Positions 250 through 27,755 of a DNA stretch of 53,182 nucleotides are shown here, piece after piece. Numbering within the stretch: position 1 is the stretch's first letter; every line of letters starts with the position of its first letter. Position numbers and translations under genes: made by a program. The notes beneath the pieces were generated by a model, which did not search any database, was not told the origin of the DNA, and saw only the letters and a list, made by a program, of their open reading frames with translations. This DNA comes from Candidatus Gastranaerophilales bacterium (GTDB lineage: Bacteria; Cyanobacteriota; Vampirovibrionia; Gastranaerophilales; Gastranaerophilaceae), in assembly GCA_944322615.1 (NCBI GenBank), contig CALUPH010000013.1:1-53182 (forward strand). Direction: 5' to 3'.

Positions 250-268
250 TTTGTCCTCTTTCTAATTC

Positions 269-6315: not shown

Positions 6316-6358
6316 ATATCTTCTGATTTCAATACATATCAAATACTAACATATAAAC

Positions 6359-7768: not shown

Positions 7769-9525
7769 TATTTTTCCTCCATAAATGAATTATTAATATT
7801 ATCTAAATTATCCATAGTCAAACATAAAATTAATATTTGTGGGTTATAGTCTAAAATATCTTTTTTATAATATTTTATTACTTTATACTGTTCTAAATTA
7901 GAAAGTTTTCCACTATTTAATCTATAATATTTTAAATTTTTAAATGAATAAGGAAGAAATCCGTTTAAATTTTCATGCATACTTGTACCCATTGATAATA
8001 CTTTAATATCCGGAGCTTCATTATAGCTATAATTTCTTCCTACTCTGTATGATGAATTGATATATTGGACAGTAAAATTTTGATTATCTTTATGGTCGTA
8101 GTATTTATATTCAACATCTAATATATTATTTATATTCCAGGTATATGGCTTCAATTGAGATTCTAAGAACCAACCGTCACGATATAGTCTTGCTATTTCA
8201 CTACGAATTTTATTACTAAAAGTTAGTTTATAATCATCCAAAGGAACTATATGAGTTTCCGGAAAATCTTTTATAATTTGTCTCATTAAAGCTTTATAAC
8301 CTATATAAGCACCAAAATCAGTCCAATGAGGGTCTGCTTTAAAGTATGTATAACCGTTTACAGTTGTATCTCTTAACTCTTCATAAGGAAATATTATATT
8401 AGCTTGTGCTTTTTTTCTAACTTCTTTTACTCTGTCAATATAATTTGAATAACTCTTTTTATTAAAATAAGACTCTAACTTAGAGTAATATATATCCGTA
8501 CTATCAGGTACAATTAATATGTATAATTTTATATTATTTTCTAAACAGAATTTATTGAAATTAGTAAACACTTGAGCTAATGTATTTACTTGTGATTTTC
8601 TTAGTTTCAAATCGGGATTTCTCTTTACAAACATATAGTTTGAATGTTTATCAAAAAGAACCTTCGGCGTTTCTATAACACTTTTACATATATAGATATA
8701 ATTCATATATGTATTAAATAGACAGTCTCTAAGATAAAATCTATCGTTAAAATAAGCTTCATAATCTTTGCCAAATGTATAGTTTATTGTTCCTTCCTTT
8801 GTTATTAAAGGTTTAAACTTTGCTAAGAAACGATTTTCTGTTTTAGATTTGTCACTATCATCAATATGACTCATAGGTAAAAACAAGAAAACAAAGAATG
8901 CCAATAAAAAGAATATCTCTATTCTTGATTGATTTTTTATATCCTTAAAATCTGCAATATAATTTGCTATTTTTAGTGATATTAAAAAAGATAGAACTAA
9001 AATAATTATTAAAGTATAAAAATCAACATTTATAGGTGAATGCAAACCTTGAAGTTCTTTATCATATAAAATTATACAAACAGGTTTTTTAGGAGTAAAT
9101 CTTACTTTTCCATCAACGATTGAAATATTCGCATCTGTTGATGTATAAGCTTTTAAATCTTTCAACTTATAATTTTTTCCAAAAACTATTGGAGAAAATT
9201 CATATATATTATTTGTGTCTAGATTAGCAAAAACAAGTCTTGCAAACTTTATATTTTTTATATCATTATATTTGAAATTATAAATACAAGGTTTATTTAT
9301 TTCTAACTTATGACGCTCACTATATCTCTTAACCTCTTTATAATGAGAAACATTACTAACAGCAAGTGTTATATTTGCAAAACTTTCTTGTGTAAGATTT
9401 GTTAAATTTACTTTTGCTTGTATTATTCCTTCTGAAGTATAAAAACTTCTGGTTACAAACAAAACAAAAATAGTTATTATTAAACTAACAACATATCTCT
9501 TTTTAATTACTAATTTTTCTTTCAT
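7768..9525 (-). CDS. AlgJ/AlgX-like SGNH acyltransferase partner of MBOAT
   Basis: A 585-residue protein with a membrane segment near residues 12-30 and two more near 170-222, then a soluble domain. The catalytic motif ADPHWTDFGAY (about residues 395-405) is the Asp-His motif of the AlgX/AlgJ/DHHW branch of SGNH hydrolases. A candidate nucleophile lies in SMGTSMHEN near residue 508, and DSTDIYYSK resembles the family's conserved block. Such proteins take acetyl groups from the MBOAT partner and put them on extracellular polysaccharide. The N-terminal ~165 residues form an unassigned β-rich extracytoplasmic part between the first two membrane segments, longer than in AlgJ. The gene overlaps the MBOAT gene by one base. 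Confidence 0.85.
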   Translation of the reverse strand: MKEKLVIKKRYVVSLIITIFVLFVTRSFYTSEGIIQAKVNLTNLTQESFANITLAVSNVSHYKEVKRYSERHKLEINKPCIYNFKYNDIKNIKFARLVFANLDTNNIYEFSPIVFGKNYKLKDLKAYTSTDANISIVDGKVRFTPKKPVCIILYDKELQGLHSPINVDFYTLIIILVLSFLISLKIANYIADFKDIKNQSRIEIFFLLAFFVFLFLPMSHIDDSDKSKTENRFLAKFKPLITKEGTINYTFGKDYEAYFNDRFYLRDCLFNTYMNYIYICKSVIETPKVLFDKHSNYMFVKRNPDLKLRKSQVNTLAQVFTNFNKFCLENNIKLYILIVPDSTDIYYSKLESYFNKKSYSNYIDRVKEVRKKAQANIIFPYEELRDTTVNGYTYFKADPHWTDFGAYIGYKALMRQIIKDFPETHIVPLDDYKLTFSNKIRSEIARLYRDGWFLESQLKPYTWNINNILDVEYKYYDHKDNQNFTVQYINSSYRVGRNYSYNEAPDIKVLSMGTSMHENLNGFLPYSFKNLKYYRLNSGKLSNLEQYKVIKYYKKDILDYNPQILILCLTMDNLDNINNSFMEEK

Positions 9526-9566
9526 TTTATTTTTCTTTCTTCTTAATATAACATTAGTCTTTTTTA

Positions 9567-10865
9567 TTATCGACCGATTTGATAGTACTCTATTCCTTTT
9601 TCTTGCAATCTATATTTATCATACTGATTTCTACCATCGAAGATTATAGGTTTATTCATCAATTCAAGAATTTTCTCAAAATCAGGACGTCTAAACTCAT
9701 TCCATTCCGTTAAAAGTAACAAACAATCAGCATTATCAATCGCATCATATGAATTATTACAATACTCTATTTTATTGCCGAAAATTGTTTGTGCTAATGG
9801 CATGGCTTTGGGATCAAAAGCTTTGATTTTTGCCCCTTTTAACAATAATTCATTAATTATTGTTATAGCTGGTGCTTCTCTCATATCATTTGTTTTTGGT
9901 TTAAAAGCCAATCCCCAAACAGCAAAAGTTAAACCGCTTAAATCTAGCCCAAACCTATCTATTATTTTTTGAACAAATATTTTCCTTTGTTCTTTATTAA
10001 CTTTATCAGCAGCCTTTATTATAGACATTTCACAATTATTTTCAGAACCTGTTTTTATAAGAGCTTTGACATCTTTCGGGAAACAACTTCCGCCATATCC
10101 TAAACCGGGGAATAAGAATTTATTTCCTATTCTTGAATCCGTTGACATTCCAACTCTTACCATTTCTGCATCAGCACCTAACTTTTCACATAAATTAGCT
10201 ATTTCATTCATAAATGATATCTTCGTAGCTAAGAATGAATTAGAGGCATATTTTGTCATTTCTGCAGATCTTACATCCATTACAATAACTCTGTTTCCTG
10301 TTCTAAAAAACGGCGAGTATATTTCTTGCATAATTGCGGTAGCTTTATCAGAATTAGAACCGATTACAACTCTATCCGGTTTTAAGAAGTCATCAACAGC
10401 ATTTCCCTGTTTTAAAAACTCAGGATTTGATACAACATCAAACGGATGGTTTGTATTTGTTTTTATAATTTCTGCGACTTTGTCTGCAGTTCCTACAGGA
10501 ACAGTCGATTTATCAACGATAACCTTATATCCGTTCATTGATTTTGCAATTGATTCCGCAACATTAAAAACATATTGTAAATCAGCACTTCCATCTTCAC
10601 CTTGAGGTGTCCCTACTGCTATAAAACAAACTAAGGATTTCTTTACTGAAGAATCCAAGTCTGTTGAAAATAACAATCTGTTTTCTTTTACATTAGCATT
10701 TACTAATTCCTCAAGTCCGGGTTCATATATAGGTATAATTCCATTTTTTAACTGTTCAATTTTCTCTTCATTATTATCTACACATATGACGGTATTACCC
10801 ATATCAGCAAGACAAGCTCCTGCTACCAAACCTACATACCCAGTCCCTACTACTGTTATATTCAT
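9567..10865 (-). CDS. ugd: UDP-glucose 6-dehydrogenase
   Basis: The 432-residue protein has the N-terminal NAD-binding fold VGTGYVGLVAG, the central helix segment, and the catalytic Cys in GYGGSCFPKD (about residue 260). The C-terminal UDP-binding part has GLAFKPKTNDMREAPA. Length and motifs match Ugd/TuaD, which oxidises UDP-glucose twice to UDP-glucuronate using NAD. It lies in the same run as a UDP-glucuronate-4-epimerase-like gene (13021-13968), so UDP-GlcA and UDP-GalA are likely precursors here. The start has AAGGAG at a good distance. Its codon usage and higher conservation make it one of the surest calls. Confidence 0.97.
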   Translation of the reverse strand: MNITVVGTGYVGLVAGACLADMGNTVICVDNNEEKIEQLKNGIIPIYEPGLEELVNANVKENRLLFSTDLDSSVKKSLVCFIAVGTPQGEDGSADLQYVFNVAESIAKSMNGYKVIVDKSTVPVGTADKVAEIIKTNTNHPFDVVSNPEFLKQGNAVDDFLKPDRVVIGSNSDKATAIMQEIYSPFFRTGNRVIVMDVRSAEMTKYASNSFLATKISFMNEIANLCEKLGADAEMVRVGMSTDSRIGNKFLFPGLGYGGSCFPKDVKALIKTGSENNCEMSIIKAADKVNKEQRKIFVQKIIDRFGLDLSGLTFAVWGLAFKPKTNDMREAPAITIINELLLKGAKIKAFDPKAMPLAQTIFGNKIEYCNNSYDAIDNADCLLLLTEWNEFRRPDFEKILELMNKPIIFDGRNQYDKYRLQEKGIEYYQIGR

Positions 10866-10910
10866 TATTGCTCCTTATTTTTATTATTAAAATCCGTCGT
10901 ATTTTAATAT

Positions 10911-13016
10911 CTAGTTTAAATATTTATAACAATCTTTTAGTTTTTTCAAGTCACTATATTTTGCTTTATATTTTTGTTTCATTTTACCAAAAGATAACTT
11001 TGAAAGTATTTTGTATTTGTAATACTTTTTCTTATTTCTATTAAATTTTGCTATATTTTTTAGATTTTGTACAAGATATTGATTCTCTTCCAACGCTCTT
11101 CTAAGTTCACTATTCTCTTTCTGAAGCTGGTTTATTTTTCCGTCTGTACATCTATGTCTGTCAACAGTTATCATTTTATTTATTATTTCTGCCGAAAATG
11201 GAGATTCAAGAGCATATTGGAAATACATAGGAGAAAATTCATAATGCGGAAATTCATCAGGTTTACCACCCGGCATATGGAATATTTTCATTTTACTTTT
11301 TGCGTCCAATATCTCATCTTGAAACTCTTCCGATATATTATGTATATTTAACTGCCTATAGAACATTAAATAATTATAATCAGGCGTCAAATAATAAATT
11401 TTATCTTCTGAAACCTTATTTATAACATCTTGGTCAACATAATACGGATTTTTTAAATATTGAAGAAGTCTGATTGCTTTATTTGAAAAATCGTCTTTCT
11501 TCATCTGTTTTATATTTAAAACCAATACACCGCATTGTATATATTTTCTATAATCGAAAGCAATAAAGTTATCAAAATAATCCTTTATATCAACATTGTT
11601 TATAAATACTTTGTTTTTATATCTTGACTGTACTACATAATCCTTAACACCTGCAACATAATTATCCTTTAAATTTATGTTATACAAATCCTTTAAATCG
11701 GATAATATTAAAGTATCTGCATCAACATATATCATCTTGTCATAATTTTTGAAAATTCTATCCGCAAACAATCTGAAATATGTTTCCTTTGATAAGGTTC
11801 CATGTACATAAAAAATTTCACTATATCCAGCTAATTCTTTTTGTAAGTTCAAAAATCTGATTGAACAATTAGGATATTTTTGAACTAAAGCTTTTATCTT
11901 ATCTTTTATTGCATTATCGATTGATGTTTCCATTACAATCAAGTCATAATTGGTATTTTTATCCATATGCTTTAATAAAGAATATATAGTTATTCCTAAA
12001 TATGGAGCATATGTATTAGAGGAAGAAAATAGAACAGGTATTTGTTCTTTAAAACTTGGTTTTATTTCTTCCATATTGTCAAAAATTTTATCAGAAACAC
12101 CTAATAACCTTGTTTTTTCACCAAATGCTTGCTTTAAGAAATGAGCATAAAACTTTGTATACATAGCATACTTCCAAAATTGCCAAGCCAAAGGTTTTGC
12201 TTTTTCTTTTATTGGTTTAGGACCTGCAAAATGATATACATAAGCATTTTTTCTTGAATTATCATATTCTTTATATAATGCTTTCGGTGTATGTTTTTTT
12301 AAGAAATCATATGTCCAAAAATACCAAACATGATTCCATTTTAATGGTAATAATTTAATTTTTTTCTGACATACCGAATTAATAATATCTTGGTCATAAA
12401 AAACCGGAGTTTTTACTTCTTTTAACTTTTCCAAACACTTCTTTGTAAAATCAAACTTACGCATTTCATTAAGATTAAATAAAGAAATTCCAGCTTGTAT
12501 GTATCCGTTTACATCTTTTAGATTCAATATATTATCAAAATAAAACTTATATTTTTGACCATTTGGTAAATCTGCATCCCTATTATAATTATATATAGCT
12601 GAAATATTTGGAGCCGCAGCTAATAAATAATTTTTTATAGACATAGAATAAAGATTAACTATATCTGTATTAAAAACAACATCTACGTCTGAATATATAA
12701 CTTTTTCTAAATCAGGAAGAATCTGCGGAATATAAAATCGATAATAGGTTTCTTTTGTTACATATCCGCTTTCAAAAAAAGTTGAACGATCTTCTTTGGG
12801 TAAATATTCATCTACATTTATAAATATGATTTTTATATTTTTATATGTCTCACATTCACTTTTGATTAACTCTTGATTTCTTTCCGCTAAATTAGAATGC
12901 AATACATAGATATTATATATGTTATTTTTGGAAGAATTAAACGCAACAGATTTTAAAGCCACAGAAAATAAAGGTGTATACTCATTTGAAACAGAAAAAA
13001 CAATATCAACTTTCAT
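10911..13016 (-). CDS. Tandem GT8-GT8 glycosyltransferase
   Basis: A 701-residue protein made of two consecutive GT8 domains. The first opens with VDIVFSVSNEYTPLF and has YSDVDVVF near residue 105. The second opens near residue 325 with IPVLFSSSNTYAPYL and has YVDADTLIL near 428. Each has its own VFYDQDII/YVDQDVIN block and an HFAG/HMPGG-type ending, so both look catalytically complete. A short heptad-like stretch and a Lys/Tyr-rich tail (KYYKYKILSKL) close the protein. It may add two sugars in sequence or build an alternating repeat. It sits between the epimerase and ugd genes. The ATG has GGAG about eleven bases upstream. Confidence 0.9.
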   Translation of the reverse strand: MKVDIVFSVSNEYTPLFSVALKSVAFNSSKNNIYNIYVLHSNLAERNQELIKSECETYKNIKIIFINVDEYLPKEDRSTFFESGYVTKETYYRFYIPQILPDLEKVIYSDVDVVFNTDIVNLYSMSIKNYLLAAAPNISAIYNYNRDADLPNGQKYKFYFDNILNLKDVNGYIQAGISLFNLNEMRKFDFTKKCLEKLKEVKTPVFYDQDIINSVCQKKIKLLPLKWNHVWYFWTYDFLKKHTPKALYKEYDNSRKNAYVYHFAGPKPIKEKAKPLAWQFWKYAMYTKFYAHFLKQAFGEKTRLLGVSDKIFDNMEEIKPSFKEQIPVLFSSSNTYAPYLGITIYSLLKHMDKNTNYDLIVMETSIDNAIKDKIKALVQKYPNCSIRFLNLQKELAGYSEIFYVHGTLSKETYFRLFADRIFKNYDKMIYVDADTLILSDLKDLYNINLKDNYVAGVKDYVVQSRYKNKVFINNVDIKDYFDNFIAFDYRKYIQCGVLVLNIKQMKKDDFSNKAIRLLQYLKNPYYVDQDVINKVSEDKIYYLTPDYNYLMFYRQLNIHNISEEFQDEILDAKSKMKIFHMPGGKPDEFPHYEFSPMYFQYALESPFSAEIINKMITVDRHRCTDGKINQLQKENSELRRALEENQYLVQNLKNIAKFNRNKKKYYKYKILSKLSFGKMKQKYKAKYSDLKKLKDCYKYLN

Positions 13017-13020
13017 ACAA

Positions 13021-13968
13021 TTAATTACTCCAATTTATAAAATTTTTAACGCCGTCATAAAAAGATGTTTCAGGCTTATAATTCAATAGCTTCATACTTT
13101 TAGAAATGTCACAAACTGTTCTGTCTACATCTCCGGGTTGCATAGGCATTTTATTAATTATTGCTTTTTTCCCCAATATATTCTCTATAGTAGAAATCAT
13201 ATCTACTAATGAAATAGGATTACCTCCGCCTAAATTAAAGATTTCATAACCGGTTTTATCATATTTCATAGCAGATATTGTACCTGATACAATGTCATCA
13301 ATATATGTATAATCACGTATTGATGTACCATCCCCATACATATTTATAGGTTGATTATTTCTTATTAAATTCACAAACTTATTTATTGCTAAATCAGGAC
13401 GTTGACGAGGTCCAAATACGGTGAAATATCTTAGCATTACAATATTTAAATCGTATAAATGATGATATGTATAACAAATTTGCTCACAAGCTGATTTTGA
13501 TGCAGCATATGGAGAAATTGGTCTTCTTACATTCAAATCTTCTGAAAATTTTTCTGCTTTACAATTTCCATAAACAGATGACGAAGATGCCATACACATT
13601 TTCTTCACGCCATACTTTTTCATCAATTCCAATATATTAACAGTGCCCATTACATTCGTTTGCATATATTCAACAGGCTTTTCTATTGATGGTCGAACTC
13701 CTGCTCTTGCTGCTAAATGAACAATTATGTCTATTTTATTCTCAGAAAAAATTTTTTCTAATTCTTCTAAATTTTCTATATCTGCTTCATATAACTTGTA
13801 ATTACTATTTAATAATGCATTTGAAATATTTTTCCTTTTTAATTCAGGAGAATAATAATCACAAAAATTATCTACACAAATAACCTTGCAATTCTCTTTT
13901 AGTAAAGTATCTGCCAATGTGGATCCTATAAAACCCGCACCACCTGTTATTAATACATTATTTAACAT
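13021..13968 (-). CDS. NAD-dependent UDP-sugar epimerase, UDP-glucuronate 4-epimerase-like
   Basis: A 315-residue extended short-chain dehydrogenase/reductase. It has the NAD-binding motif ITGGAGFIGS at residues 7-16, the catalytic Ser in ASSSSVYG, and the YAASK pair (Tyr and Lys near 152 and 156). The block DNFCDYYSPELKRKNI resembles bacterial UDP-glucuronate 4-epimerases, and ugd lies two genes downstream, so UDP-GlcA to UDP-GalA conversion is the best guess. UDP-glucose/galactose epimerisation remains possible. Its start overlaps the preceding DUF616 gene by 11 bases and has AAGGAG five bases before the ATG. Confidence 0.85.
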   Translation of the reverse strand: MLNNVLITGGAGFIGSTLADTLLKENCKVICVDNFCDYYSPELKRKNISNALLNSNYKLYEADIENLEELEKIFSENKIDIIVHLAARAGVRPSIEKPVEYMQTNVMGTVNILELMKKYGVKKMCMASSSSVYGNCKAEKFSEDLNVRRPISPYAASKSACEQICYTYHHLYDLNIVMLRYFTVFGPRQRPDLAINKFVNLIRNNQPINMYGDGTSIRDYTYIDDIVSGTISAMKYDKTGYEIFNLGGGNPISLVDMISTIENILGKKAIINKMPMQPGDVDRTVCDISKSMKLLNYKPETSFYDGVKNFINWSN

Positions 13969-15379
13969 CCGGTCTCCTTTTTTGATGTTTTAGAAGCATA
14001 AAGTTTTCAATATCTGAACGAGCATTCGGAAACGAAATATCATCAACTGAGATTCCATTCTTCCATAATACAAAAGAAAAACTTAATTGATCTCGCTTGC
14101 AATAATCTCTAATATAAGACCACCACTCATCCATCATATTAATAACCGAAGGTTCATGATGTTTTCTATAAATAATATTATTTTCTGTCATACCATAATT
14201 AATAGGGAACCCTGCTTTCTTCATAAGGTCTATAAAAGCATTAACTAATTCAGGATAATCAACATTATCTCTTAATATCCATTTTGAATGAGCATATGGA
14301 CATACTTCAAGAAAATGACGAGGTAATAACAAATTAAGATTTCTTGCTTTGACTAAATCAAATAAAAATGGAGTTAAAATATTTACATTTGAATCTATAT
14401 AGATACTTTCTTCATATTCAGACAATACAATATGCGGATTAATTTTATGATATCTGTTTATTCTGGTTGTATCTAAATCGGAAATTACTAACGGTCTTAT
14501 TTTCCATATTCCGATTTGACCTTTTTTCAACCACTCTTTATTATCAGAAAAACATATATAATCATATTCTTCATCAACATATGCTTGTTGAACCAATGCG
14601 TCATAATCTCCGACAATACAAGTATATACAACTTTATTTTTTTTCTTATCAGGTTCTTTTAATGAATCTTCCGGGAAAGGATTTGAAACGTATCCATAAA
14701 CAGCAACATAACGACCTTCTCTTAAGAAGTGAATTAAAGGACATTCATCCAATTTGGGACGCATCGACAAATAAAATTTCGTATCAAATGATTCGGAAGG
14801 ATTATAATGCATCTTCCATCCTAACTTAATATAGTGATCTAATGGTGATAATCCGTATTTTTTATACTCAGGATAACGTGATACATAATAATCTTCATCA
14901 AAAAGTTTCAAAGCCTTAATTTGCTCGACATATTCATCCATCAACAATGAAGTTACCATTTTTTTACTTGAATCTTGATTGATTAAATATGGAATTCTAT
15001 GTTTTAGTTGATGTTCTATATCTAACTGCTTTTGAGAAAATGTACCCATTTGGTATTGAATAGAATCAATCTTTTTACCCATAGTCGTTAAATCATTAAG
15101 CAATTTTTGATTTATACTTTCAAATTTTTTCAACATTTCTTGCTGTTTATTTAACAATTGGGTGTTATTAACTTCCGATTTTTCTTCGGTTTTATTATGC
15201 AACTCTGCATTATTAACTTCGGATTTTTCTTCAGGTATAGTTTGTTTTTCTGTCAATGTTTTAGAATTATTTTCTAATTTTGTCTGTTCTATTACCCCTA
15301 GCTTATACTTATAATGTTCTCTTATTTCTTTTCTTCCAAAACGCGATAAAAACTTATACCTTAACTCTCTTAAACTCAT
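13958..15379 (-). CDS. DUF616-type glycosyltransferase-like protein with N-terminal coiled coil
   Basis: A 473-residue protein. Residues 1-30 are basic, and residues 40-130 are charged and predicted coiled coil, containing a 15-residue tandem repeat (EEKSEVNNxxLxNKx twice). Residues ~165-225 carry two copies of a polysaccharide-locus motif, DYYVSRYPEYKKYGLSPLDHY and FYLSMRPKLDECPLIHFLREG. From about residue 245 a DUF616 domain follows (VVYTCIVGDYD, YDYICFSDN, IYIDSNVNIL), a putative nucleotide-sugar transferase fold. It is the first gene of the ten-gene minus-strand run, so expression of the locus should begin upstream of it, in the region holding the recombination site at 15659-15685. The upstream AAAGAA is a weak ribosome site. 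The substrate is unknown. Confidence 0.8.
   Translation of the reverse strand: MSLRELRYKFLSRFGRKEIREHYKYKLGVIEQTKLENNSKTLTEKQTIPEEKSEVNNAELHNKTEEKSEVNNTQLLNKQQEMLKKFESINQKLLNDLTTMGKKIDSIQYQMGTFSQKQLDIEHQLKHRIPYLINQDSSKKMVTSLLMDEYVEQIKALKLFDEDYYVSRYPEYKKYGLSPLDHYIKLGWKMHYNPSESFDTKFYLSMRPKLDECPLIHFLREGRYVAVYGYVSNPFPEDSLKEPDKKKNKVVYTCIVGDYDALVQQAYVDEEYDYICFSDNKEWLKKGQIGIWKIRPLVISDLDTTRINRYHKINPHIVLSEYEESIYIDSNVNILTPFLFDLVKARNLNLLLPRHFLEVCPYAHSKWILRDNVDYPELVNAFIDLMKKAGFPINYGMTENNIIYRKHHEPSVINMMDEWWSYIRDYCKRDQLSFSFVLWKNGISVDDISFPNARSDIENFMLLKHQKRRPDVK
15143..15232 (-). repeat. In-frame tandem repeat, two 45-bp units
   Basis: Two adjacent 45-bp units encode EEKSEVNNAELHNKT and EEKSEVNNTQLLNKQ inside the coiled-coil part of the DUF616 protein. 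The first 24 bases of each unit differ at only one position, while the rest has drifted. The unit length is a multiple of three, so gain or loss would keep the frame and change the length of the stalk. Confidence 0.8.
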
Positions 15380-15658
15380 TTCTTTACACCAAATTCTTTT
15401 TTTGTTTAAACTTTAATTGTCAAAATATAAAAAACATATTCCTTGTATTTTTTTAACTATTCACAATATTTAAATAAAAAATAAAAATAACTTAATTTTT
15501 AGAACTCTCTTTTAAAATAATTTATATAAATAATTTAGATAATTAAAAAAAATGATTATTAAGTAAGCACAAAATATAAAAAAATGAAAACTCTCTCAAA
15601 AACTTTTTATCTTTTAGAATATTCAATACTACTTAACCTTCGAAACATGATTAATCAT

Positions 15659-15685
15659 ATACAACATTTTGTATATTTTGTTGCA
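15659..15685 (-). repeat. Left inverted site of putative invertible element
   Basis: Read on the minus strand, this 27-bp site begins TGCAACAAAATATACA and ends TGTTGTAT. It matches the site at 16279-16305 at 24 of 27 positions, in opposite orientation. The site is itself an imperfect dyad with TGCAACA and TGTTGTA arms around a central spacer, as expected of a tyrosine-recombinase core site. The identity stops abruptly on both sides. Confidence 0.75.
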
Positions 15686-15690
15686 GAAAA

Positions 15691-15719
15691 AGTATACTAT
15701 AAACTTACCATGCTTACAA
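15691..15719 (-). promoter_or_regulatory. Candidate outward promoter inside the invertible element
   Basis: On the minus strand, TTGTAA (-35, at 15714-15719) is separated by exactly 17 bases from TATACT (-10, at 15691-15696). Transcription would start within the left site and run into the DUF616-epimerase-GT8-ugd operon. If the segment inverted, the same promoter would face the GT2 gene at 16431. In sequence this A+T-rich such matches occur by chance, so the call is tentative. Confidence 0.4.
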
Positions 15720-16262
15720 TTATAAAATAAACTTTTCGCAACAATTCCAAATTTCCTCATCATTTATACCTATATAAGTCATTGTAATTCGTGGTGTTGA
15801 GTGATTTAAGATTTTCTGTAACATTGCAACATCTTTATATTTCTTGTAAAAGTGGTAACCAAAGGTTTTTCTAAGTGTATGAGTTCCGATATTTATATCT
15901 AAATTTATTTCCTTGCAAGCATTATTTATAATCCTATACGCTGTTATCCGATCCATACGATTTTTATATTTAGTCAAAAATAAGGGTTCGTCTAACGCTC
16001 TATTTTTTGTATAAAAATCTAAAATGTTTTTTAACTTTTGGTTTAATGGAAAAATTTTATTTTTTCCTGTCTTCTTTTCTTTTAAACTTAAATAATTTTT
16101 ATCTTTTACATCAGCAACATCTAAGTTTAAAATATCTGATATTCTAAGCCCTGAATTAACTCCCATACAGAATAAGACGTAATCTCTTGGTTTTGTTTTT
16201 TTTAAAGAATCTTCTATTTTTTCAATTAATTTCTTATCTCTGATAGGTTCAACAATTGCCAT
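15720..16262 (-). CDS. Small tyrosine recombinase (invertase-like, catalytic domain only)
   Basis: A 180-residue tyrosine recombinase with the full catalytic set: Arg40 in SGLRISD, a β-hairpin Lys in KEKKTGK (61-67), His128 and Arg131 in HTLRKTF, His154 in LNHSTPR and Tyr163 in MTYIG. It lacks the N-terminal core-binding domain of phage integrases and is in the size range of FimB/FimE-type invertases. I chose the ATG at 16262 over the upstream TTG because AAAGGA lies seven bases before it. No other phage gene is near. Inverted 27-bp sites lie just outside both ends of the gene, and its promoter overlaps the right one. I infer that it inverts its own segment. Confidence 0.9.
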   Translation of the reverse strand: MAIVEPIRDKKLIEKIEDSLKKTKPRDYVLFCMGVNSGLRISDILNLDVADVKDKNYLSLKEKKTGKNKIFPLNQKLKNILDFYTKNRALDEPLFLTKYKNRMDRITAYRIINNACKEINLDINIGTHTLRKTFGYHFYKKYKDVAMLQKILNHSTPRITMTYIGINDEEIWNCCEKFIL

Positions 16263-16278
16263 ATTAACATCCTTTCTT

Positions 16279-16305
16279 TGCAACAAAATATACAGTATGT
16301 TGCAT
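16279..16305 (+). repeat. Right inverted site of putative invertible element
   Basis: This site begins TGCAACAAAATATACA and ends TGTTGCAT, with 7-base arms TGCAACA/TGTTGCA in perfect dyad symmetry. It matches the reverse complement of 15659-15685 at 24 of 27 positions. It lies 17 bases upstream of the recombinase start codon and covers the probable -10 element of the recombinase promoter. The gene may therefore be autoregulated by its own product, and inversion would separate it from its -35 box. Confidence 0.75.
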
Positions 16306-16312
16306 TTGTCAA
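16285..16312 (-). promoter_or_regulatory. Recombinase promoter straddling the right site
   Basis: On the minus strand a perfect TTGACA (-35, at 16307-16312) lies two bases outside the right 27-bp site. A TATTTT (-10, at 16285-16290) lies inside it, 16 bases away. AAAGGA and the recombinase ATG follow. The arrangement puts the crossover region between or on the promoter elements. Confidence 0.5.
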
Positions 16313-16430
16313 ATAACTCTTTATATAAAAATATAAAAAATCATCATTCTAAATGAATAGAAACAGCAATCGAAAAAATGACGATATTAGAAAAAATAAT
16401 CAGGAAAGATTTTAGATTGGTCTAAATAAA

Positions 16431-17456
16431 ATGAATAATAACAAGGTAAAAGTTTCAGTAATTATTCCTGTATGGAATATGGAAAAATACTTAAAAAAAT
16501 GTTTATTTAGTATAGAACGTCAAACATTAAAAGATATAGAGATTATATGCATTAATAATGGTTCAATCGATACATCACTGGATATAATAAATGAATTTAT
16601 AAAAAAAGACAAAAGATTTAAAGTAATAAATATTGAACATTGTTATCTTTCAGATGCTAGAAATATTGGTACGGAATATGCTTCAGGAGAATATTTATAT
16701 TTCTGTGACGCTGACGACTTTTTAGAAATAAGTGCATTAGAAAAACTATATTCAAAATCAAAAAAACACAATGCCGACTTATGTATCCTTCAAGAAAAAA
16801 GATGGAATGAACAAACTAAGAAGTTCATGAATATTGAACATAGACTTTTAAAACTATATGGATGCCTTGAAGATAGAACATATAATTATAATGAAATGAA
16901 AAATATTTTTTTACCTCGGTTTGAAGCTTGGTTACATTTTTATAAAAGAGATTTTTTTATATCTAATAAGTTATATTATCCATCAAAAACCTTCTACGAA
17001 GATGTAATTATTCACTTTAAATCCATTTTTTTAGCGAAAAGAATAGTTTTTTATTTTGAACCCTTATATACTTGGAGATACAGAGTCAATTCAACGTCCT
17101 CAACATCTTATAATAGCAAACTAAAACTTGATTCTATCGTTTATTTAAAGGCAATATATTATTTCCTAAAAGAACAAAATCTATTACAGGAAAAAGTCAA
17201 TGATTTTATACCATTCTTACTATCCCAAATAGAATATCACATTAAGACGGCACCAGAAGATTTAAAAGATATTCTTATAAACTCTTTCTTTAATTTTATA
17301 GAAAAAGAAAAATGCTTGAAAAGAAATATATACAAAGATAAAAAGCTAAAAACAACCTATAAAAATATCGTCAATAATAGATTGAGATTTAATTTATTAT
17401 GCTTTAATCTTGCATTTGATTTTTCAATATTTAACAAAAAGAAAAATAAATTATAG
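16431..17456 (+). CDS. GT2 family glycosyltransferase
   Basis: A 341-residue protein with an N-terminal GT-A fold: VSVIIPVWNMEKYLKKCL at residues 8-25, ICINNGSIDTS, and the metal-binding YFCDADDFL near 92. The acceptor region contains FYEDVIIHFKS, equivalent to the ED motif of the family. The C-terminal part is Lys-rich. Such inverting enzymes add single sugars to lipid-linked glycans at the inner membrane. This is the first gene of a plus-strand set and lies just right of the putative invertible element, about 125 bases from the right site. No strong ribosome site is visible. Confidence 0.88.
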   Translation: MNNNKVKVSVIIPVWNMEKYLKKCLFSIERQTLKDIEIICINNGSIDTSLDIINEFIKKDKRFKVINIEHCYLSDARNIGTEYASGEYLYFCDADDFLEISALEKLYSKSKKHNADLCILQEKRWNEQTKKFMNIEHRLLKLYGCLEDRTYNYNEMKNIFLPRFEAWLHFYKRDFFISNKLYYPSKTFYEDVIIHFKSIFLAKRIVFYFEPLYTWRYRVNSTSSTSYNSKLKLDSIVYLKAIYYFLKEQNLLQEKVNDFIPFLLSQIEYHIKTAPEDLKDILINSFFNFIEKEKCLKRNIYKDKKLKTTYKNIVNNRLRFNLLCFNLAFDFSIFNKKKNKL

Positions 17457-17514
17457 ATTCTTTCAAATTTAGGAACTCAAATACTATAGAGAATAGATAA
17501 AACAGGAAATTAAA

Positions 17515-19605
17515 ATGAAAAAATTAGAACAAAATAATGCAGACAAAAAGATATCTATTATTATCCCCGTATACAATGCAGAAAAATATCTGGAAAAATG
17601 TTTAACAAGTGTAATAAAACAAACTTATAGAAATTTACAAATAATATGTATTAATGATGGCTCAACAGACAATTCATTAAATATATTAAAAAAATTTGAG
17701 GAAATGGATAAAAGGATAACAGTTATCTCGCAAAAAAATTTGGGAGTTTCTGCGGCTAGAAATAATGGCTTGAATATTGCTAAAGGAGAATATATTACAT
17801 TCTTGGATTCTGATGATTGGCTTGAAACAGATTGCTATACATTAGCCATTGAGGCATTTTCTTCTGATAGTTCAATTGATATTATAAGTTGGGGTGCAAA
17901 TGTTATTGATCAAAGAAACTCAACAAATTCGGAGATACAGGGTGTTCAGAATTTTTATAAATTTAATAATCTCGGGAAAACAAAATTAAATGAAACTTTA
18001 ACTAAAACACTTTCTGGTGCCGTTTGGAAATATTTATTTAAAAAAGAAATAATTAATAAGTTAAATTTGAGATTTGATAACGACTTAAAATTAGGTGAAG
18101 ATGTTTTATTTACATTCTCGTATTTTAGTCTTGTTAATTATATTTACTACTTACCATATAATACATATAATTATGTTTTATCTCAAAACTCTGCAACGCT
18201 GAAAATTGGAGAACGACATAACCCGAAATACGCATTACATAACAATATAAATCTTTTACTAAAATTAAAAAAATTCTATATTTTACAAAATAATTATGCC
18301 CTATTCAACAATATTCTTGCAAAAAAAATATTAAATACTATATTTTGGCAAATACAATATTTACAAAGTAATGATTATAAATTTTGTATTAAAGAATTAT
18401 CTAGACTAAGAAATATTCTTGATAGAAATTTTTATTATTTACAAGAAGTTAATTACATATTTAAAGGACAATTTTATAAAATTCAACAAATTAAACTTCC
18501 TTATTTCTATATTGGAAACAACATTTTAGGTTTAACTATATATAGAACAAATAACCCTTGTTTAATAATATTCTTTTTAGGTATAAGAATAAAAATACAT
18601 TATCAAAAAATTTTTTATTTGAAAAATGATTTTAATAAAGTTCATAAAATTATTAACATCTTTGGTTTAAAATTTAAGTTTAATATTAAAACAAACTCAA
18701 AAACAAAATTTAAGAAATTTTGTTCTAAATTATTTTCTATTAATAAGATTAATAAACATAAAATTATTAATTTCTTAGGAATAAAATTTAAGTTTAAAAT
18801 ACCGGAAGAAGTTAAGATTGCATGTCAATGTAAACCTTTAACCAAAAGAGAAATATCAGATTTAATTCAAAAGAATATTAATACTCTATATCTTCATTCT
18901 AAATATTTTTCAAAATATAAGAATTATTATGAAGGAAAAACAATTGTAATTTGTGGAGCAGGTCCAACTCTAAAATTCTACAAACCAATTACAGATGCCA
19001 TCCATATAGCTTTAAATAGGTCATTTTTATTTGATAAAGTCAAGTTTGATTACATTTTTGCTCAAGACTGGCGTAGTATTAAAAATATAAAAGATAAATT
19101 TATTTCTTATAATACAAATTATTGTACAAAGATTCTTGGTACACAAAACAATACCATTGAATGTGAAATACCTGAAGAAGTAGCAATTATTTGTAATGCG
19201 CTAAGGTATAATACTGACAATGAATGCTGGCCAAACTGTAAATTCGCGTTAGATATTTCTACAAATCCTTTTGGAAACTTTCATACTGTTGCTTTAGTAG
19301 CTTTGCAATTTGCATTATACACCAATCCACAAAAAATATATATTGTAGGATGTGATAGTGTTCCAACAGGGCATTTCACATCTAACTACGAAAATGAAAA
19401 TGAAATTCAAACACATATAAAAAACCAAGAAATTTTTAGTCCTCAGATGCAAAAGGAATGGAGATTAGCTAAACAGTTTATAAATATGCACTATCCAAGT
19501 ATAGAGATAGTTTCTATAAATCCGGTAGGATTAAAAGGTATTTTTAAAGACTTTTATACTGCCGAATATATAGAAGCACATCCAGACTGCAAATCTAATT
19601 CATAA
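17515..19605 (+). CDS. GT2 glycosyltransferase fused to a DUF115-like C-terminal domain
   Basis: A 696-residue protein with two ends of different type. Residues 10-230 form a GT2 domain (ISIIIPVYNAEKYLEKCL, TFLDSDDWLE, LGEDVLFTF). Residues ~470-690 resemble the DUF115/MptE-like Rossmann domain (IVICGAGPTLKFY, FDYIFAQDW, IYIVGCDSVPTGHF) found in some glycosylation proteins. Between them, residues ~340-430 hold three copies of a short pattern, IIFFLGIRIKI, IINIFGLKFKF and IINFLGIKFKF. The ATG has AGGA seven bases upstream. It lies 58 bases after the first GT2 gene. The fusion suggests that one protein adds a sugar and modifies or joins it to a second group. Confidence 0.8.
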   Translation: MKKLEQNNADKKISIIIPVYNAEKYLEKCLTSVIKQTYRNLQIICINDGSTDNSLNILKKFEEMDKRITVISQKNLGVSAARNNGLNIAKGEYITFLDSDDWLETDCYTLAIEAFSSDSSIDIISWGANVIDQRNSTNSEIQGVQNFYKFNNLGKTKLNETLTKTLSGAVWKYLFKKEIINKLNLRFDNDLKLGEDVLFTFSYFSLVNYIYYLPYNTYNYVLSQNSATLKIGERHNPKYALHNNINLLLKLKKFYILQNNYALFNNILAKKILNTIFWQIQYLQSNDYKFCIKELSRLRNILDRNFYYLQEVNYIFKGQFYKIQQIKLPYFYIGNNILGLTIYRTNNPCLIIFFLGIRIKIHYQKIFYLKNDFNKVHKIINIFGLKFKFNIKTNSKTKFKKFCSKLFSINKINKHKIINFLGIKFKFKIPEEVKIACQCKPLTKREISDLIQKNINTLYLHSKYFSKYKNYYEGKTIVICGAGPTLKFYKPITDAIHIALNRSFLFDKVKFDYIFAQDWRSIKNIKDKFISYNTNYCTKILGTQNNTIECEIPEEVAIICNALRYNTDNECWPNCKFALDISTNPFGNFHTVALVALQFALYTNPQKIYIVGCDSVPTGHFTSNYENENEIQTHIKNQEIFSPQMQKEWRLAKQFINMHYPSIEIVSINPVGLKGIFKDFYTAEYIEAHPDCKSNS

Positions 19606-19625
19606 TTTATAAAAGGAGAAATATT

Positions 19626-20303
19626 TTGTATAATAAAAAAGAAATATCTGCAATCATTGTTTGTAGAAAAGGTTCAGTAAGAATACCATCAAAAAATTTA
19701 TTACCATTAGGAAATGAAACTATTTTATCAAGAAAAATAAAACAACTTAAAAATTCAGAATTTATTGATAGAATTATTGTCGGTTCTGATGATGAAAGAA
19801 TGTTGATTATTGCAAAACAAAATGGTGCAGAACCAATTCTTCGACCCAATTTTTATTGTGATGAAAAAGTTGCTTCTGCAAATGACATGATTTCTAATAT
19901 GATGACTTTGATAAAAACAGATATTGTTGTTTGGGCTCACTGTACAAATCCTCTAATATCTTCAAAAACGTATGATATAGCAATAAAAACTTATTTTCAA
20001 AATTTGGACAAATATGATTCTTTATTATCTGTTGTTGAATTAAAAGAACATTTGTGGAAGGATGGACAGCCATTCAACTATAATCCTTACGCTATTAAAC
20101 ATACCCCAGCAAGAGAATTACCACCACTATATATGCAAGATGGGGGGATTTTTATTCAGGAATGGAAACAAATGAAAGAAAACTGTTATTTTTTTGGAAA
20201 GAAACCATACTTATTTACTATTAATAATGATGAATTTTTAGATATTAATAACAAAAGAGACTATCTTTTAGCAAAAACAATTATAGAAACAAATGAAAAA
20301 TAG
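19626..20303 (+). CDS. CMP-sugar synthetase (acylneuraminate cytidylyltransferase family)
   Basis: A 225-residue cytidylyltransferase of the NeuA/KdsB family. The nucleotide-binding loop is AIIVCRKGSVRIPSKNLLPLG, somewhat altered from the usual xRxGSKxxxxKN. The later blocks RIIVGSDDERMLIIA and VVWAHCTNPLIS follow the family pattern. It activates a keto-sugar acid to its CMP form; the acid itself cannot be told, and no sialic, legionaminic or pseudaminic acid synthase gene lies in this window. The start is a TTG with AAAGGAG eight bases upstream; no nearby ATG fits. It follows the GT2-DUF115 gene by 20 bases. Confidence 0.82.
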   Translation: MYNKKEISAIIVCRKGSVRIPSKNLLPLGNETILSRKIKQLKNSEFIDRIIVGSDDERMLIIAKQNGAEPILRPNFYCDEKVASANDMISNMMTLIKTDIVVWAHCTNPLISSKTYDIAIKTYFQNLDKYDSLLSVVELKEHLWKDGQPFNYNPYAIKHTPARELPPLYMQDGGIFIQEWKQMKENCYFFGKKPYLFTINNDEFLDINNKRDYLLAKTIIETNEK

Positions 20304-20306: not shown

Positions 20307-20330
20307 TTATTGTCATTTGCAAGACAATAA
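20307..20330. terminator. Hairpin between convergent genes, weak terminator
   Basis: The stem TTATTGTC-ATTTGCAA-GACAATAA lies between the convergent cytidylyltransferase and flavoprotein genes. It is followed by a run of A on the plus strand rather than T, so as an intrinsic terminator it is weak for either direction. Confidence 0.4.
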
Positions 20331-20338
20331 AAAAATCT

Positions 20339-21604
20339 TTATTTTGCGCAGTCCATCCCACTTTTAAATGCCTGATGGGTCCAATAATATTCCCATCTGC
20401 CAAATCTACCAATACTTTCTATATTTTGACTTTGTAAATAGTCTAAAACAACTTTTCTATTCTTATAAATATCCTTATCAAAGGTTATATTTGCATATTT
20501 TTCAAATCGTATATCTTTTACTAGAATTTCATCTTCTTTAAATAAATTCATAGACACCAATTTGCAAATAGTATTTTGCATTACCTCTTCTTTACTTGGA
20601 ATTTCAGCTTTACAATCAAAGAAAATTTCAGCTTGCAAAGAACTGCAACCATTCGGAACATTATCTAAAGATTCTCTGCTTGGTGAATATACTCTAGAAG
20701 CTATAATTTCTTCATCATAAATATAGAACCACAAATATTTTGGAACATCCGGATTATTAAAGCCCAATGATACCATATATCCGCACGTATTATGCAAGTT
20801 ATTTGCACAATTTTGGACTTCCACAGGACAGTTCTTCACCATTTTTACAATTTCAGGAAGAGGAAGCGATGAAATCAATCTTGTATAATTTGCACTTGTT
20901 CCATCTTTAAAGGTAACTGTTTTAGATATAGTATCTATTTGCACAACTTCTTTATTAAACCTTATATCTAAACCTTCTCTGCATTTATTTAAAATACTTC
21001 TGAAACCGCCTTTTTGCGGATATTTCATATTTGATGTATAATAGAAGTTTTTATTTTGAGTTTCATATGAACCTCTTAAAACATCTTCTATATCAGGAGA
21101 GTGCATTCTATTTCCAACCCATTTTGTTTCCAAATATTTTGCCTCCAATCCCCAATATTTTTTTGTATAAACCATTGGAAACTTTTCTGCAAAATAATCA
21201 CCATACTGAACTCTTAGCCATTCTTCATAATTTTCTATTTCTTCAACTGTTTTTGAGGCTCTATTTATAAATCCTTTTACTATCTTGACCTTCTCTTCTA
21301 CAGGTAATGGAGCAATATTATCTTGTGCAGGATGCTTTAACCAATATCCTTTATAATAATTACTAGATACACTTGGGTGAGCATATGTTGGAGATGATTC
21401 TTCAAATATTTTATTTATATATTCATCATCCGAAAAAGTAAAATGCACAAACTTATCAAATCTAAAGCCATCAATTGAGAAATAAGCGCAAAGCCCACCC
21501 CAGTCATTATCTTTTTCATAGATAATAACATCTTCTCCTGTTTTTTTTAAATGATATCCTGCAGATATTCCTGAAATACCACTGCCAAGAATTATTGTTC
21601 CCAT
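20339..21604 (-). CDS. FAD-dependent oxidoreductase, amine-oxidase/UGM-like
   Basis: A 421-residue flavoprotein with the FAD-binding start IILGSGISGISAGYHLKK, then YEKDNDWGGLCAYF and GFRFDKFVHFTF. This layout is shared by amine-oxidase/protoporphyrinogen-oxidase-like proteins and UDP-galactopyranose mutases. A second FAD contact appears near the C-terminus (SIGRFGRWEYYWTHQ, similar to the ending of mutases). Its start overlaps rfbG by 13 bases, with AAAGG before the ATG, so it is coupled to the CDP-sugar genes. From context it may act on a CDP-activated deoxysugar, for example as a pyranose-furanose mutase. This is a hypothesis; an oxidase role is also possible. Confidence 0.75.
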   Translation of the reverse strand: MGTIILGSGISGISAGYHLKKTGEDVIIYEKDNDWGGLCAYFSIDGFRFDKFVHFTFSDDEYINKIFEESSPTYAHPSVSSNYYKGYWLKHPAQDNIAPLPVEEKVKIVKGFINRASKTVEEIENYEEWLRVQYGDYFAEKFPMVYTKKYWGLEAKYLETKWVGNRMHSPDIEDVLRGSYETQNKNFYYTSNMKYPQKGGFRSILNKCREGLDIRFNKEVVQIDTISKTVTFKDGTSANYTRLISSLPLPEIVKMVKNCPVEVQNCANNLHNTCGYMVSLGFNNPDVPKYLWFYIYDEEIIASRVYSPSRESLDNVPNGCSSLQAEIFFDCKAEIPSKEEVMQNTICKLVSMNLFKEDEILVKDIRFEKYANITFDKDIYKNRKVVLDYLQSQNIESIGRFGRWEYYWTHQAFKSGMDCAK

Positions 21605-22686
21605 AAATAACCTTTGTCCATGTGATTTTGAATTTGTTTTTTACAGTATTCAAACATATCATCATTGTGAAGTGCTTCTTTATACCAATCTACAGTATAT
21701 TCAATTGCCTCATAGAAATTCAACATTGCTTTCCAATTAAGCATTCTGTATGCTTTTGTTACGTCCAAACTTAAAAGAGTATTTTCATGTACCATATTTG
21801 GAGAAGATACATCAACTACATTACCTTTTCCATAGTATTTTACTAAATACTCAACAACATCCCATACAGTTTTATTACATTCAATTGGAGGACCAAAATT
21901 AAAACCTTCAGAATATTTTACAGGTTCTTCCATTAATTTTTGACCTACTCTTAAATATCCGCTTAATGGTTCTAATACATGTTCCCAAGGTCTTGTTGCT
22001 TTTGGACTGCGAATTTCAATATCCTTACCTTCTTCAATAAATCTTATACAATCAGGAACTAATCTGTTGTCAGACCAATCACCGCCACCTATTACATTTC
22101 CTGCTCTTACTGAAGCAATAGCTTTTCCATGTTTTGCATAATCTTTCGGATTAAAATATGAATTTCTATATGAAGAAATCATTAATTCAGCACAACCTTT
22201 AGATGAAGAATAAGGATCATATCCGCCCATTCTGTCTGTTTCTTTATAACCCCATATCTGTTCAACATTTTCATAACATTTATCTGAAGTTATCATTATT
22301 ACTGTTTTTATGAAATCAAACTTTCTAACGGCCTCTAATATATTTAACGAGCCAATTACATTTGTCTCATATGTATATTTAGGGCTATCATATGCTGTTC
22401 TGACTAATGCTTGAGCTGCTAAGTGGAATATAATTTCAGGTTTATATTTTGCTATAGTAGCTTCTAATTTTTCGCTATCTCTTATGTCACCTTTTACATC
22501 AGCATATAGATGTTTTTCTAAATGAGATGCTTTATAGTTACCTCTTTGAGAATATGGTTCAAGTGCATAACCAACAACATTCGCACCTAACATAGTTAAC
22601 CATATTGAAAGCCAGCTTCCTTTAAAACCGGTATGACCTGTAACTAAAACTGTTTTACCTCTATATACATTATTAAAATTTGACAT
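21592..22686 (-). CDS. rfbG: CDP-glucose 4,6-dehydratase
   Basis: A 364-residue extended short-chain dehydratase with NAD-binding VTGHTGFKGSWLSIWL at residues 15-30, a motif specific to the CDP-glucose branch. It also has the catalytic block ITSDKCYEN and YDPYSSSKGCAE (Tyr/Lys near 157). It converts CDP-glucose to CDP-4-keto-6-deoxyglucose. The gene for CDP-glucose synthesis (23596-24411) lies two genes upstream in the same run. The ATG directly follows the stop codon of the preceding gene and has GGGAG eight bases upstream. Confidence 0.95.
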   Translation of the reverse strand: MSNFNNVYRGKTVLVTGHTGFKGSWLSIWLTMLGANVVGYALEPYSQRGNYKASHLEKHLYADVKGDIRDSEKLEATIAKYKPEIIFHLAAQALVRTAYDSPKYTYETNVIGSLNILEAVRKFDFIKTVIMITSDKCYENVEQIWGYKETDRMGGYDPYSSSKGCAELMISSYRNSYFNPKDYAKHGKAIASVRAGNVIGGGDWSDNRLVPDCIRFIEEGKDIEIRSPKATRPWEHVLEPLSGYLRVGQKLMEEPVKYSEGFNFGPPIECNKTVWDVVEYLVKYYGKGNVVDVSSPNMVHENTLLSLDVTKAYRMLNWKAMLNFYEAIEYTVDWYKEALHNDDMFEYCKKQIQNHMDKGYLWEQ

Positions 22687-23595
22687 TTATATATCTCCCT
22701 TAATTTGTCCTTTCCACCAGTCTATTGTTTGTTTTAGACCCATCTCTAGCGTATATTTGGGTTCCCAGCCTATAGATTTCAGTTTTTGGTTATTTCCGAC
22801 TACAACTTCATCTCCAAATGCAGCAGGAATTGCGCCCCATAATATATTACCTTTAAAATTAGTATACTCTGCAATTTTATTAACAATTTCTCTTAATTGC
22901 ACAGGTTTTCCGGAGCATATATTTACAGCACCTTCTATATCACTTTCAAATACCTCGACAATTCCTCTTGCGGTATCTTCTACGTGTAAATAATCCTGAA
23001 ATTTTAAACAATCACTTACTTTTACATCTTCACCTTTTAAACAAGAATTTATTACAGAAGGCATTAATCTTTGAGGTTTCTCATTCGGGCCATACAAATT
23101 GAAAATCCTCGGCCATTTAAACTTTATATTATTTCCTTTGCAATATACTTTAGCTATGTTGTACAATGCATTTTTACTATTCCCGTACAATGTTTGAGGA
23201 TCTGTTGGTGTTTCATCTTCTAATAAATATCCGTATTTATATTCATATTCAGATATTGTCCCGGCACCTACAAAACACTTACCTCCGTTTTCTGCAAATG
23301 CTTTTAGTAAATTCAATGTTGCTATTGTCCAATCCATATTAAGATTATGTATATGACATTTCGGTCCTACATACCATGCCAGATGAATCAAATTTTCAAA
23401 ATTATTTTCTTTTAAGAAATCTGAAACTGCTTTTGAATCCATTAAATTCATTTCATACTGAAATAAATTTTCTTGTTCAGGTGCAAAAGGAGGATAAACT
23501 AAAGAATGAACTTCATAGCCTCTTTTTAACAATTCATTAACTATATTTCTACCAATAAAACCGGTAGCGCCTGTAATTAAAACTTTCTTACTCAT
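22687..23595 (-). CDS. NAD(P)-dependent sugar epimerase/reductase of the CDP-sugar branch
   Basis: A 302-residue extended short-chain reductase with ITGATGFIGRNIV at residues 7-19 and a YGNSK catalytic pair near 137-141. It lies exactly between the CDP-glucose cytidylyltransferase and 4,6-dehydratase genes, with no spacing on either side. It most likely reduces or epimerises CDP-4-keto-6-deoxyglucose at C4, like CDP-abequose/paratose synthases. The RfbH-type C3-dehydrase needed for 3,6-dideoxy sugars is not seen in this window, so the product may instead be a CDP-6-deoxyhexose. The ribosome site is AGGA inside the end of rfbF. Confidence 0.8.
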   Translation of the reverse strand: MSKKVLITGATGFIGRNIVNELLKRGYEVHSLVYPPFAPEQENLFQYEMNLMDSKAVSDFLKENNFENLIHLAWYVGPKCHIHNLNMDWTIATLNLLKAFAENGGKCFVGAGTISEYEYKYGYLLEDETPTDPQTLYGNSKNALYNIAKVYCKGNNIKFKWPRIFNLYGPNEKPQRLMPSVINSCLKGEDVKVSDCLKFQDYLHVEDTARGIVEVFESDIEGAVNICSGKPVQLREIVNKIAEYTNFKGNILWGAIPAAFGDEVVVGNNQKLKSIGWEPKYTLEMGLKQTIDWWKGQIKGDI

Positions 23596-24411
23596 TTACA
23601 CTCTTCCTGCTGTACTTTCATATGCATTTTGTTTATCCCAAACTTTCCAAGGTGCTTTATTTGATTCCCACATACCTTCTAAGTCAAGTTTATCTCTCAA
23701 TGTATCCATTGGTCTCCAGAATCCTGAATGTTTATAAGCATTTAATTGACCATGTGTTGCAATACTTTCAAGTGGCTTGCGTTCAAATGTAACATCCGGA
23801 TTATTTGCTTCTATAAAATCAAAGACTTCGGGTTCACAAACAAAGAAGCCTCCATTAATCCAAGCTCCATCTCCTTGCGGTTTTTCTTTAAATGATGTTA
23901 TCATATTATTTTCATTTATATTCAATGCTCCAAATCTTCCTGATGGTTGAACTGCTGTCATTGTCATCAATTTCCCTGATTTTTTATGTGAATCTAACAA
24001 TTCTGATATATTTACATCACTAACACCATCACCATAGGTTAACATAAATGGTTCATTACCTACATAATCTTGTGCTTTTTTTATTCTGCCCCCTGTCATT
24101 GTGTTTTGACCGGTATACAACATTGTTACTTTCCAAGGTTCTGTACGCATTTTATGAAGTTCAACAGTATTTGTTCTCAAATCCACCGTAATATCAGAAT
24201 ATCTCTGATAATAATGAACAAAATAATCCTTTATCATATGAGATTTATAACCTGTCAATATAACAAAATCATTAAATCCATAATGGGAATATATTTTCAT
24301 TATATGCCATAAAATAGGATATCCTCCTATTTCAACCATTGGTTTCGGCTTAGAGACAGTTTCTTCCCCAAGTCTTGTACCTAAACCACCTGCCAGAATT
24401 AAGACCTTCAT
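23596..24411 (-). CDS. rfbF: Glucose-1-phosphate cytidylyltransferase
   Basis: A 271-residue nucleotidyltransferase with the N-terminal signature ILAGGLGTRLGEETVSKPKP and the RfbF-specific blocks ILWHIMKIYSHYG and GYKSHMIKDYF. It makes CDP-glucose from CTP and glucose 1-phosphate, the entry step of CDP-linked deoxysugars. Length and motifs match RfbF across the whole protein. It follows a GT2 gene by one base and has AAGGA six bases before the ATG, consistent with one operon running from 28688 to 20339. Confidence 0.95.
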   Translation of the reverse strand: MKVLILAGGLGTRLGEETVSKPKPMVEIGGYPILWHIMKIYSHYGFNDFVILTGYKSHMIKDYFVHYYQRYSDITVDLRTNTVELHKMRTEPWKVTMLYTGQNTMTGGRIKKAQDYVGNEPFMLTYGDGVSDVNISELLDSHKKSGKLMTMTAVQPSGRFGALNINENNMITSFKEKPQGDGAWINGGFFVCEPEVFDFIEANNPDVTFERKPLESIATHGQLNAYKHSGFWRPMDTLRDKLDLEGMWESNKAPWKVWDKQNAYESTAGRV

Positions 24412-24412
24412 A

Positions 24413-25462: not shown

Positions 25463-25510
25463 TTTAATTCTTTCTTTAAAACAAAATCCTAAACTCTAAT
25501 ATTTCAAATA

Positions 25511-27707: not shown

Positions 27708-27755
27708 AAGCTTCCTCTATTACTTTATTAAATGATATAATAAACATTATATTTT

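Follow-up and report, generated by a model that had tools for sequence, protein, structure and literature searches.

The element at positions 15659 to 16305 of the window, in which a small tyrosine recombinase gene is tightly enclosed by two inverted sites, raises the question of whether it works as a genetic switch that carries its own enzyme, and of what such a switch would control. The window, meaning the whole stretch of DNA analysed (53,182 nucleotides), is the complete contig C13 of a 1.96-Mb draft genome (G000) belonging to the Gastranaerophilales, uncultured non-photosynthetic relatives of the cyanobacteria that live in animal guts.

Anatomy of the element and its recombinase

The 647-bp unit consists of a left site, the recombinase gene and a right site, and it lies exactly between two divergent glycan operons, both of which read away from it, as the earlier note on this DNA had described. 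The features to which the text refers are the following, with strand where one applies.

269-15379, minus strand: left glycan operon, reading away from the element
15659-15685: left recombination site, arms TACAACATTT / TTTTGTTGCA with spacer TGTATA, at the downstream end of the recombinase gene
15691-15719, minus strand: candidate outward promoter, -35 TTGTAA (15714-15719), 17 nt, -10 TATACT (15691-15696)
15720-16262, minus strand: tyrosine recombinase of 180 aa, catalytic domain only (PF00589; phrog_216)
16270-16275, minus strand: putative ribosome-binding site AAAGGA, 7 nt before the ATG at 16262, as read from the sequence
16279-16305: right recombination site, a copy of the left one in inverted orientation (24/27) that immediately precedes the ribosome-binding site
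16285-16312, minus strand: candidate promoter of the recombinase gene, with its -35 (TTGACA, 16307-16312) beyond the element and its -10 (TATTTT) within the right site
16431-20303, plus strand: right glycan operon (GT2, GT2, cytidylyltransferase), reading away from the element
20327-35745: conserved block outside the element, used as the anchor for the comparison of orientation

The left operon encodes an ABC transporter, a DUF4422/GT8 protein and a further GT8 protein, an MBOAT protein, an AlgX-like protein, a UDP-sugar dehydrogenase, an epimerase and a TOD1/MUCI70-type glycosyltransferase.

The sites had been described as an inverted pair of 27 bp, identical at 24 positions, dyad-symmetric, and with a likeness that ends sharply. 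The pairing is confirmed by an inverted-repeat score of 19 for the best alignment, where the best of 300 dinucleotide shuffles of 15600-16350 reached 14, meaning that inverted repeats bracket the segment beyond chance, as is expected of an inverton. All three mismatches fall in the outer arms; the two sites agree completely in their inner arms and in the spacer (TGTATA, inverted TATACA). The dyad symmetry is real but only partial (16/26 and 20/26 columns), and the likeness does end sharply, apart from a few inner bases (GAAAAAG/AAGAAAG). When the dyad pattern was searched genome-wide, the two sites matched with 0 and 1 mismatch and all other matches had at least 2, so that no site of equal quality was found elsewhere in the genome; the use of the same sites as plain operators at many unrelated promoters, which the earlier note had named as one observation that would count against a switch, is thus not what we see. 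Asymmetric spacers in inverted sites lead tyrosine recombinases to inversion, not deletion, and because the spacer is asymmetric and the sites are inverted here, inversion is the expected outcome. The recombinase gene itself (15720-16262) lies inside the segment, between 15685 and 16279, which is a Hin-like layout, and an enzyme, both sites and a promoter within about 650 bp would make a very small autonomous inversion switch.

The predicted fold of the recombinase is not in doubt: the Pfam match to PF00589 (E 1.3e-26) spans profile positions 11-171 of 172 and residues 12-169, and scores 93.8 bits with a gathering threshold of 27.1, which places the protein among the tyrosine recombinases. The full catalytic set is found where it had been reported, with R40, a lysine in the 61-69 hairpin, H128, R131, H154 and Y163, and all of these residues other than the lysine are invariant in ten homologues. 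The FimB-like size also holds, since the protein has 180 aa and no N-terminal core-binding domain, which fits the FimB/FimE type of about 180-200 aa. The Fim invertase models (NCBIfam PRK09870/PRK09871) gave 45 and 56.5 bits, below their cut-offs of 221 and 222, and the nearest named family is that of the small phage recombinases of phrog_216, with 46-49% identity over nearly the whole length. The closest relative in named records comes from Candidatus Avigastranaerophilus faecigallinarum (89% identity). Translation most likely starts at the ATG at 16262, preceded by AAAGGA, and not at the TTG at 16286. The gene is under strong purifying selection, with dN/dS of about 0.05 and about 0.07 in comparison with its counterparts at loci L095 and L097, respectively.

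Between the stop codon of the recombinase and the left site, a TTGTAA-17-TATACT motif reads outward (15719-15691, minus strand). Promoter-like matches in 15300-16500, where the DNA is very AT-rich, show no excess over shuffles, and the evidence for a promoter is therefore that of conservation. Among three species, this stretch has accumulated 1-3 changes in 38 nt where recombinase dS is 1.06-1.51 (1/38 changes against a dN of 0.055 and a dS of 1.06), that is, it is far more conserved than synonymous sites, and strong selection acts on it. A relic in genome G006, described below, keeps both hexamers and their 17-nt spacing even though part of the spacer has diverged. Across all ten enclosed elements presented below, a -10-like hexamer adjoins the site in 7 cases where 3.4 are expected, a weak excess of about twofold. 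The conserved stretch would likeliest be a promoter that serves the left operon in the present orientation and the right operon after inversion. As for the recombinase, the stretch of the element ahead of its start is too short to hold a promoter. The best candidate would reach across the border, with a -35 in the right flank and a -10 in the right site, although it was not seen conserved in the flanks of relatives. A promoter spanning flank and site would make expression of the recombinase dependent on orientation and open to self-repression.

Orientation at one locus across species

The earlier note had called for a comparison of orientation between related genomes, and we carried it out with the conserved right block (20327-35745) as the anchor. 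This block is colinear with the window in G011 (locus L095; 86-91% identity), where the recombinase lies on the plus strand and the element is reversed; the immediate flanks of L095 show no homology to the window or to L097 above shuffles, and its orientation is thus read from the right block only. G018 (L097) has the right block of the window and also a portion of the left one, both inverted as a whole in its contig; its element, read in the direction of the window, has the same orientation as that of the window. In G018, homology also covers the ~57 bp of flank next to the left site (score 49, shuffle maximum 35). The contig of G059 (L164) has a counterpart of the right site and ends inside the recombinase gene (7620-7707), with the element oriented as in the window; assemblies often break at segments that are present in two orientations. 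Finally, G006 (L163) conserves parts of both window 1-10868 and 20329-25226, at 79-89% identity, and has lost the recombinase. What is left is a 64-bp remnant of the downstream end, comprising one site and the promoter-like stretch. It matches 15662-15725 at 91% identity, is in the reverse orientation with respect to both flanks, and points at a 385-aa ORF with GT2-type similarity. The left site of the window has counterparts in the sites of L095 and L097 and in this relic.

On the basis of these four comparisons, both orientations occur at one locus between species, with the element pointing left in the window, G018 and the truncated copy of G059, and pointing right in G011 and the relic of G006. 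The presence of a segment in both orientations is what is expected of an inverton, here between species, and it supports the earlier proposal of a phase-variation switch with its own recombinase. The species compared differ in their nearest operon genes, which would also be compatible with a cassette that was replaced in the other direction rather than flipped, but the G006 relic makes such a replacement unlikely.

Sites beside related recombinases

We examined about 120 distinct homologous loci for inverted sites that tightly bracket the recombinase, and found this enclosed layout in ten of them: the window, L095, L097, L010, L011, L098, L105, L131, L132 and L079 (L031 is a 97% identical copy of L098). 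Among 400 mismatched pairs of upstream and downstream sequences, which served as the control for the bracketing score, the maximum was 14; nine of the ten elements are clear on score alone, and L097, whose score of 14 equals that maximum, was accepted because its sites align with those of the window. The two sites of one locus match perfectly or almost perfectly, the L097 pair being the most divergent, whereas most loci differ from one another in site sequence (L011 and L132 are alike). Site and enzyme therefore seem to change together, and this pattern of divergence between loci with matching within pairs also speaks against plain operators. Eight of the ten enclosed elements lie between divergent ORFs; at the two exceptions, L011 and L131, the flanks are not divergent and a switch would be of the on/off kind, not either/or. 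The neighbours are mostly glycosyltransferases (GT1, GT2, GT8/DUF4422), epimerases, LicD proteins or paired radical-SAM paralogues. On a tree of 118 recombinases, the genes with the enclosed layout tend to group together: 5 label changes are needed, as opposed to 8.8 in shuffles, and none of 500 shuffles was as low.

A few of these loci have peculiarities of their own. Genome G290 carries two enclosed cassettes with different sites, L131 and L132, and a further homologue at 11605-12147 of L131 that has no bracketing sites. At L079, a broken recombinase sits in a cassette between inverted radical-SAM paralogues, and 2.7 kb from this cassette there is a second, perfect 28-bp inverted pair (1871-2024) with 98 bp between its sites and no recombinase inside, which is perhaps a target switched in trans. 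The glycan gene block of L098 (1686-4711) is opposite, relative to the cassette, to that of L102 (3074-6097), and one breakpoint of this rearrangement is at the upstream edge of the L102 recombinase. We considered a simple flip for this pair and rejected it, as the rearrangement is large and the second site is degenerate in L102.

Related recombinases of high similarity are found in 181 of the 335 sampled genomes of the order, and many have a second type of arrangement. An inverted pair scoring at least 15 occurs within 450 bp downstream of the gene in 41 of 104 other homologues, while the same score was reached by 3/312 shuffles, 2/96 sequences taken 900 bp downstream and 4/97 upstream sequences. 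The adjacent segments are 100-370 bp long, their layout is Fim-like in that the recombinase is outside, and many of the pairs have AACA/TGTT arms like those of the window. One case is especially informative: at L124 and L126 (L165 and L166; genomes G178 and G075, of two genera), the recombinases are 99% identical and 2.77 kb is 94% identical, and the two differ by a clean 189-bp inversion of a segment that is itself 97% identical. The outer arms keep their places and the inner ones have been swapped, with the crossover mapping to a common 8-bp core, TTAGTATT. This is base-level evidence, drawn from aligned sequences, that such sites beside recombinases of the same family undergo inversion. No flips were found in the other close pairs (L137/L138, L060/L039, L122/L125, L145/L147), all of which have the same orientation. 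The near-identity of the L165/L166 switch region in two genera suggests recent horizontal transfer. It contains three copies of TCAACA..TTAGTATT..GTTGA beside the recombinase (L165 2978-3322, L166 4167-4511), which makes it a three-site switch, and precedes a gene that reads like a heptosyltransferase.

The genome of the window has a second recombinase of the family on contig C25 (L072, 9364-9879, minus strand; 50% identity). Downstream of it, an inverted pair with an end-to-end distance of about 195 bp overlaps the start region of a PLD/helicase-like ORF, possibly a phase-variable defence gene.

Explanations for the element and comparison with known systems

We consider the 647-bp element to be a self-contained invertible promoter cassette that toggles one promoter between two glycan operons, and give this reading a probability of about 0.85. 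Recombinase dimers would bind each of the inverted dyad sites and bring them into synapsis, strands would be exchanged within the 6-8 bp spacer or core, and the segment would flip, carrying with it the recombinase gene and the promoter. Located just inside the downstream site, the promoter would fire outward, into the left operon in the orientation of the window and into the right operon after inversion, and cells would alternate between two surface-glycan gene sets. The 180-aa recombinase is the probable catalyst of the flip, and the outcome would be phase variation of glycans.

The same sites might instead be operators only, at which a recombinase-like protein represses its own promoter and the outward one and no recombination takes place. 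Each site is indeed a partial dyad, the right one overlaps a good candidate for the recombinase promoter, and the left one is located where the outward transcript would be expected to begin; but the catalytic set is complete and conserved, the opposite orientation occurs at the same locus in other species, and the homologous L124/L126 system shows inversion with exchange in the core, so that we hold repression alone to be highly improbable, although autoregulation may accompany inversion. Another conceivable explanation is a switch that has degenerated or become locked, inversion having been lost in the G000 genome. The three outer-arm mismatches, together with decayed copies elsewhere (the L163 relic, the broken recombinase of L079 and the degenerate site of L102), would be in keeping with such a loss, yet L095 and L097 also have differences in their outer arms, the inner arms and spacer of the window are identical, and its gene is intact with a dN/dS of about 0.05, which together make a locked state very unlikely.

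To the idea of a minimal mobile element, that is, a recombinase with terminal inverted repeats that inserts at new places, we give hardly any credence. It would account for the occurrence of such units at unrelated loci in several genomes, for a likeness between loci that stops at the repeats, and for the two copies in G290. Against it, a single locus is kept in the window, G018, G011, G059 and the G006 relic, the repeats differ between most loci while matching within a pair, the placement between divergent sugar genes is too regular, and members of the family elsewhere adjoin invertible segments. Neither a target duplication nor an empty site was seen at the loci compared, and the copies at other loci have diverged.

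Extending the invertible-cassette reading to the whole order is possible but rather doubtful. Small tyrosine invertases might then form an order-wide family that is the main machinery of surface-glycan phase variation in Gastranaerophilales, one branch of which would consist of autonomous 0.65-kb flip cassettes. With a recombinase promoter split between site (-10) and flank (-35), each orientation might set its own flipping rate, and the enzyme might repress itself through the site.

Set beside known systems, the element combines the layout of Hin with a tyrosine recombinase of FimB size that falls outside the curated Fim family. It shares with Hin/hix, the flagellar switch of Salmonella, a recombinase gene and an outward promoter (in our element a candidate one) inside a segment bracketed by inverted sites, as well as, probably, a surface structure as the output. 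This likeness is one of layout and not of family membership, Hin being a serine recombinase and the enzyme of the window a tyrosine recombinase; Hin also needs a Fis enhancer, its segment is about 1 kb long, and it drives one operon (fljBA), whereas the element described here is flanked by an operon on each side. FimB/FimE-fimS, MrpI and the RecV switches of C. difficile have inverted sites and surface genes in common with it, and FimB and FimE are, like the protein of the window, tyrosine recombinases (~200 aa) without an N-terminal core-binding domain. Their recombinase lies outside the inverted segment, however, and here it lies inside; about 40 homologues, those with adjacent segments, share the Fim-type layout. 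The Bacteroides capsule promoters (Mpi) and other gut invertons control surface polysaccharide operons by promoter inversion, as our element probably does, but Mpi is one distant master serine recombinase acting on many promoters, and here each cassette has its own enzyme and sites.

Sekulovic et al. (2018; PMC5903667) note that recombinases lie 'occasionally within the invertible segment', with Hin as the example, and mention for Providencia stuartii an 844-bp segment, putatively invertible, with a recombinase inside it. Like our element, this segment is short and located next to surface genes, and it contains a recombinase ORF; it differs in belonging to a gammaproteobacterium, in being associated with fimbriae and in its 14-bp imperfect repeats (PMC5903667).

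The closest named protein relatives are the phrog_216 recombinases of Streptococcus, Terrisporobacter and Geobacillus phages; comparable inverted sites were not found near them in the three examples tested, and a search beside phage and Bacillota homologues (L167-L169, L012-L015, L019, L020) gave nothing convincing for switching. Our literature search found no work joining phase variation with Gastranaerophilales, including among the best-ranked matches. Since the recombinases are widespread in the order and many have inverted sites beside them, surface-sugar switching is testable from existing metagenome reads. Elsewhere in the window, a 497-aa ORF (50671-52164) shows a resemblance to RTX-type calcium-binding repeats in its C-terminal part (a partial NCBIfam match, far below the cut-off).
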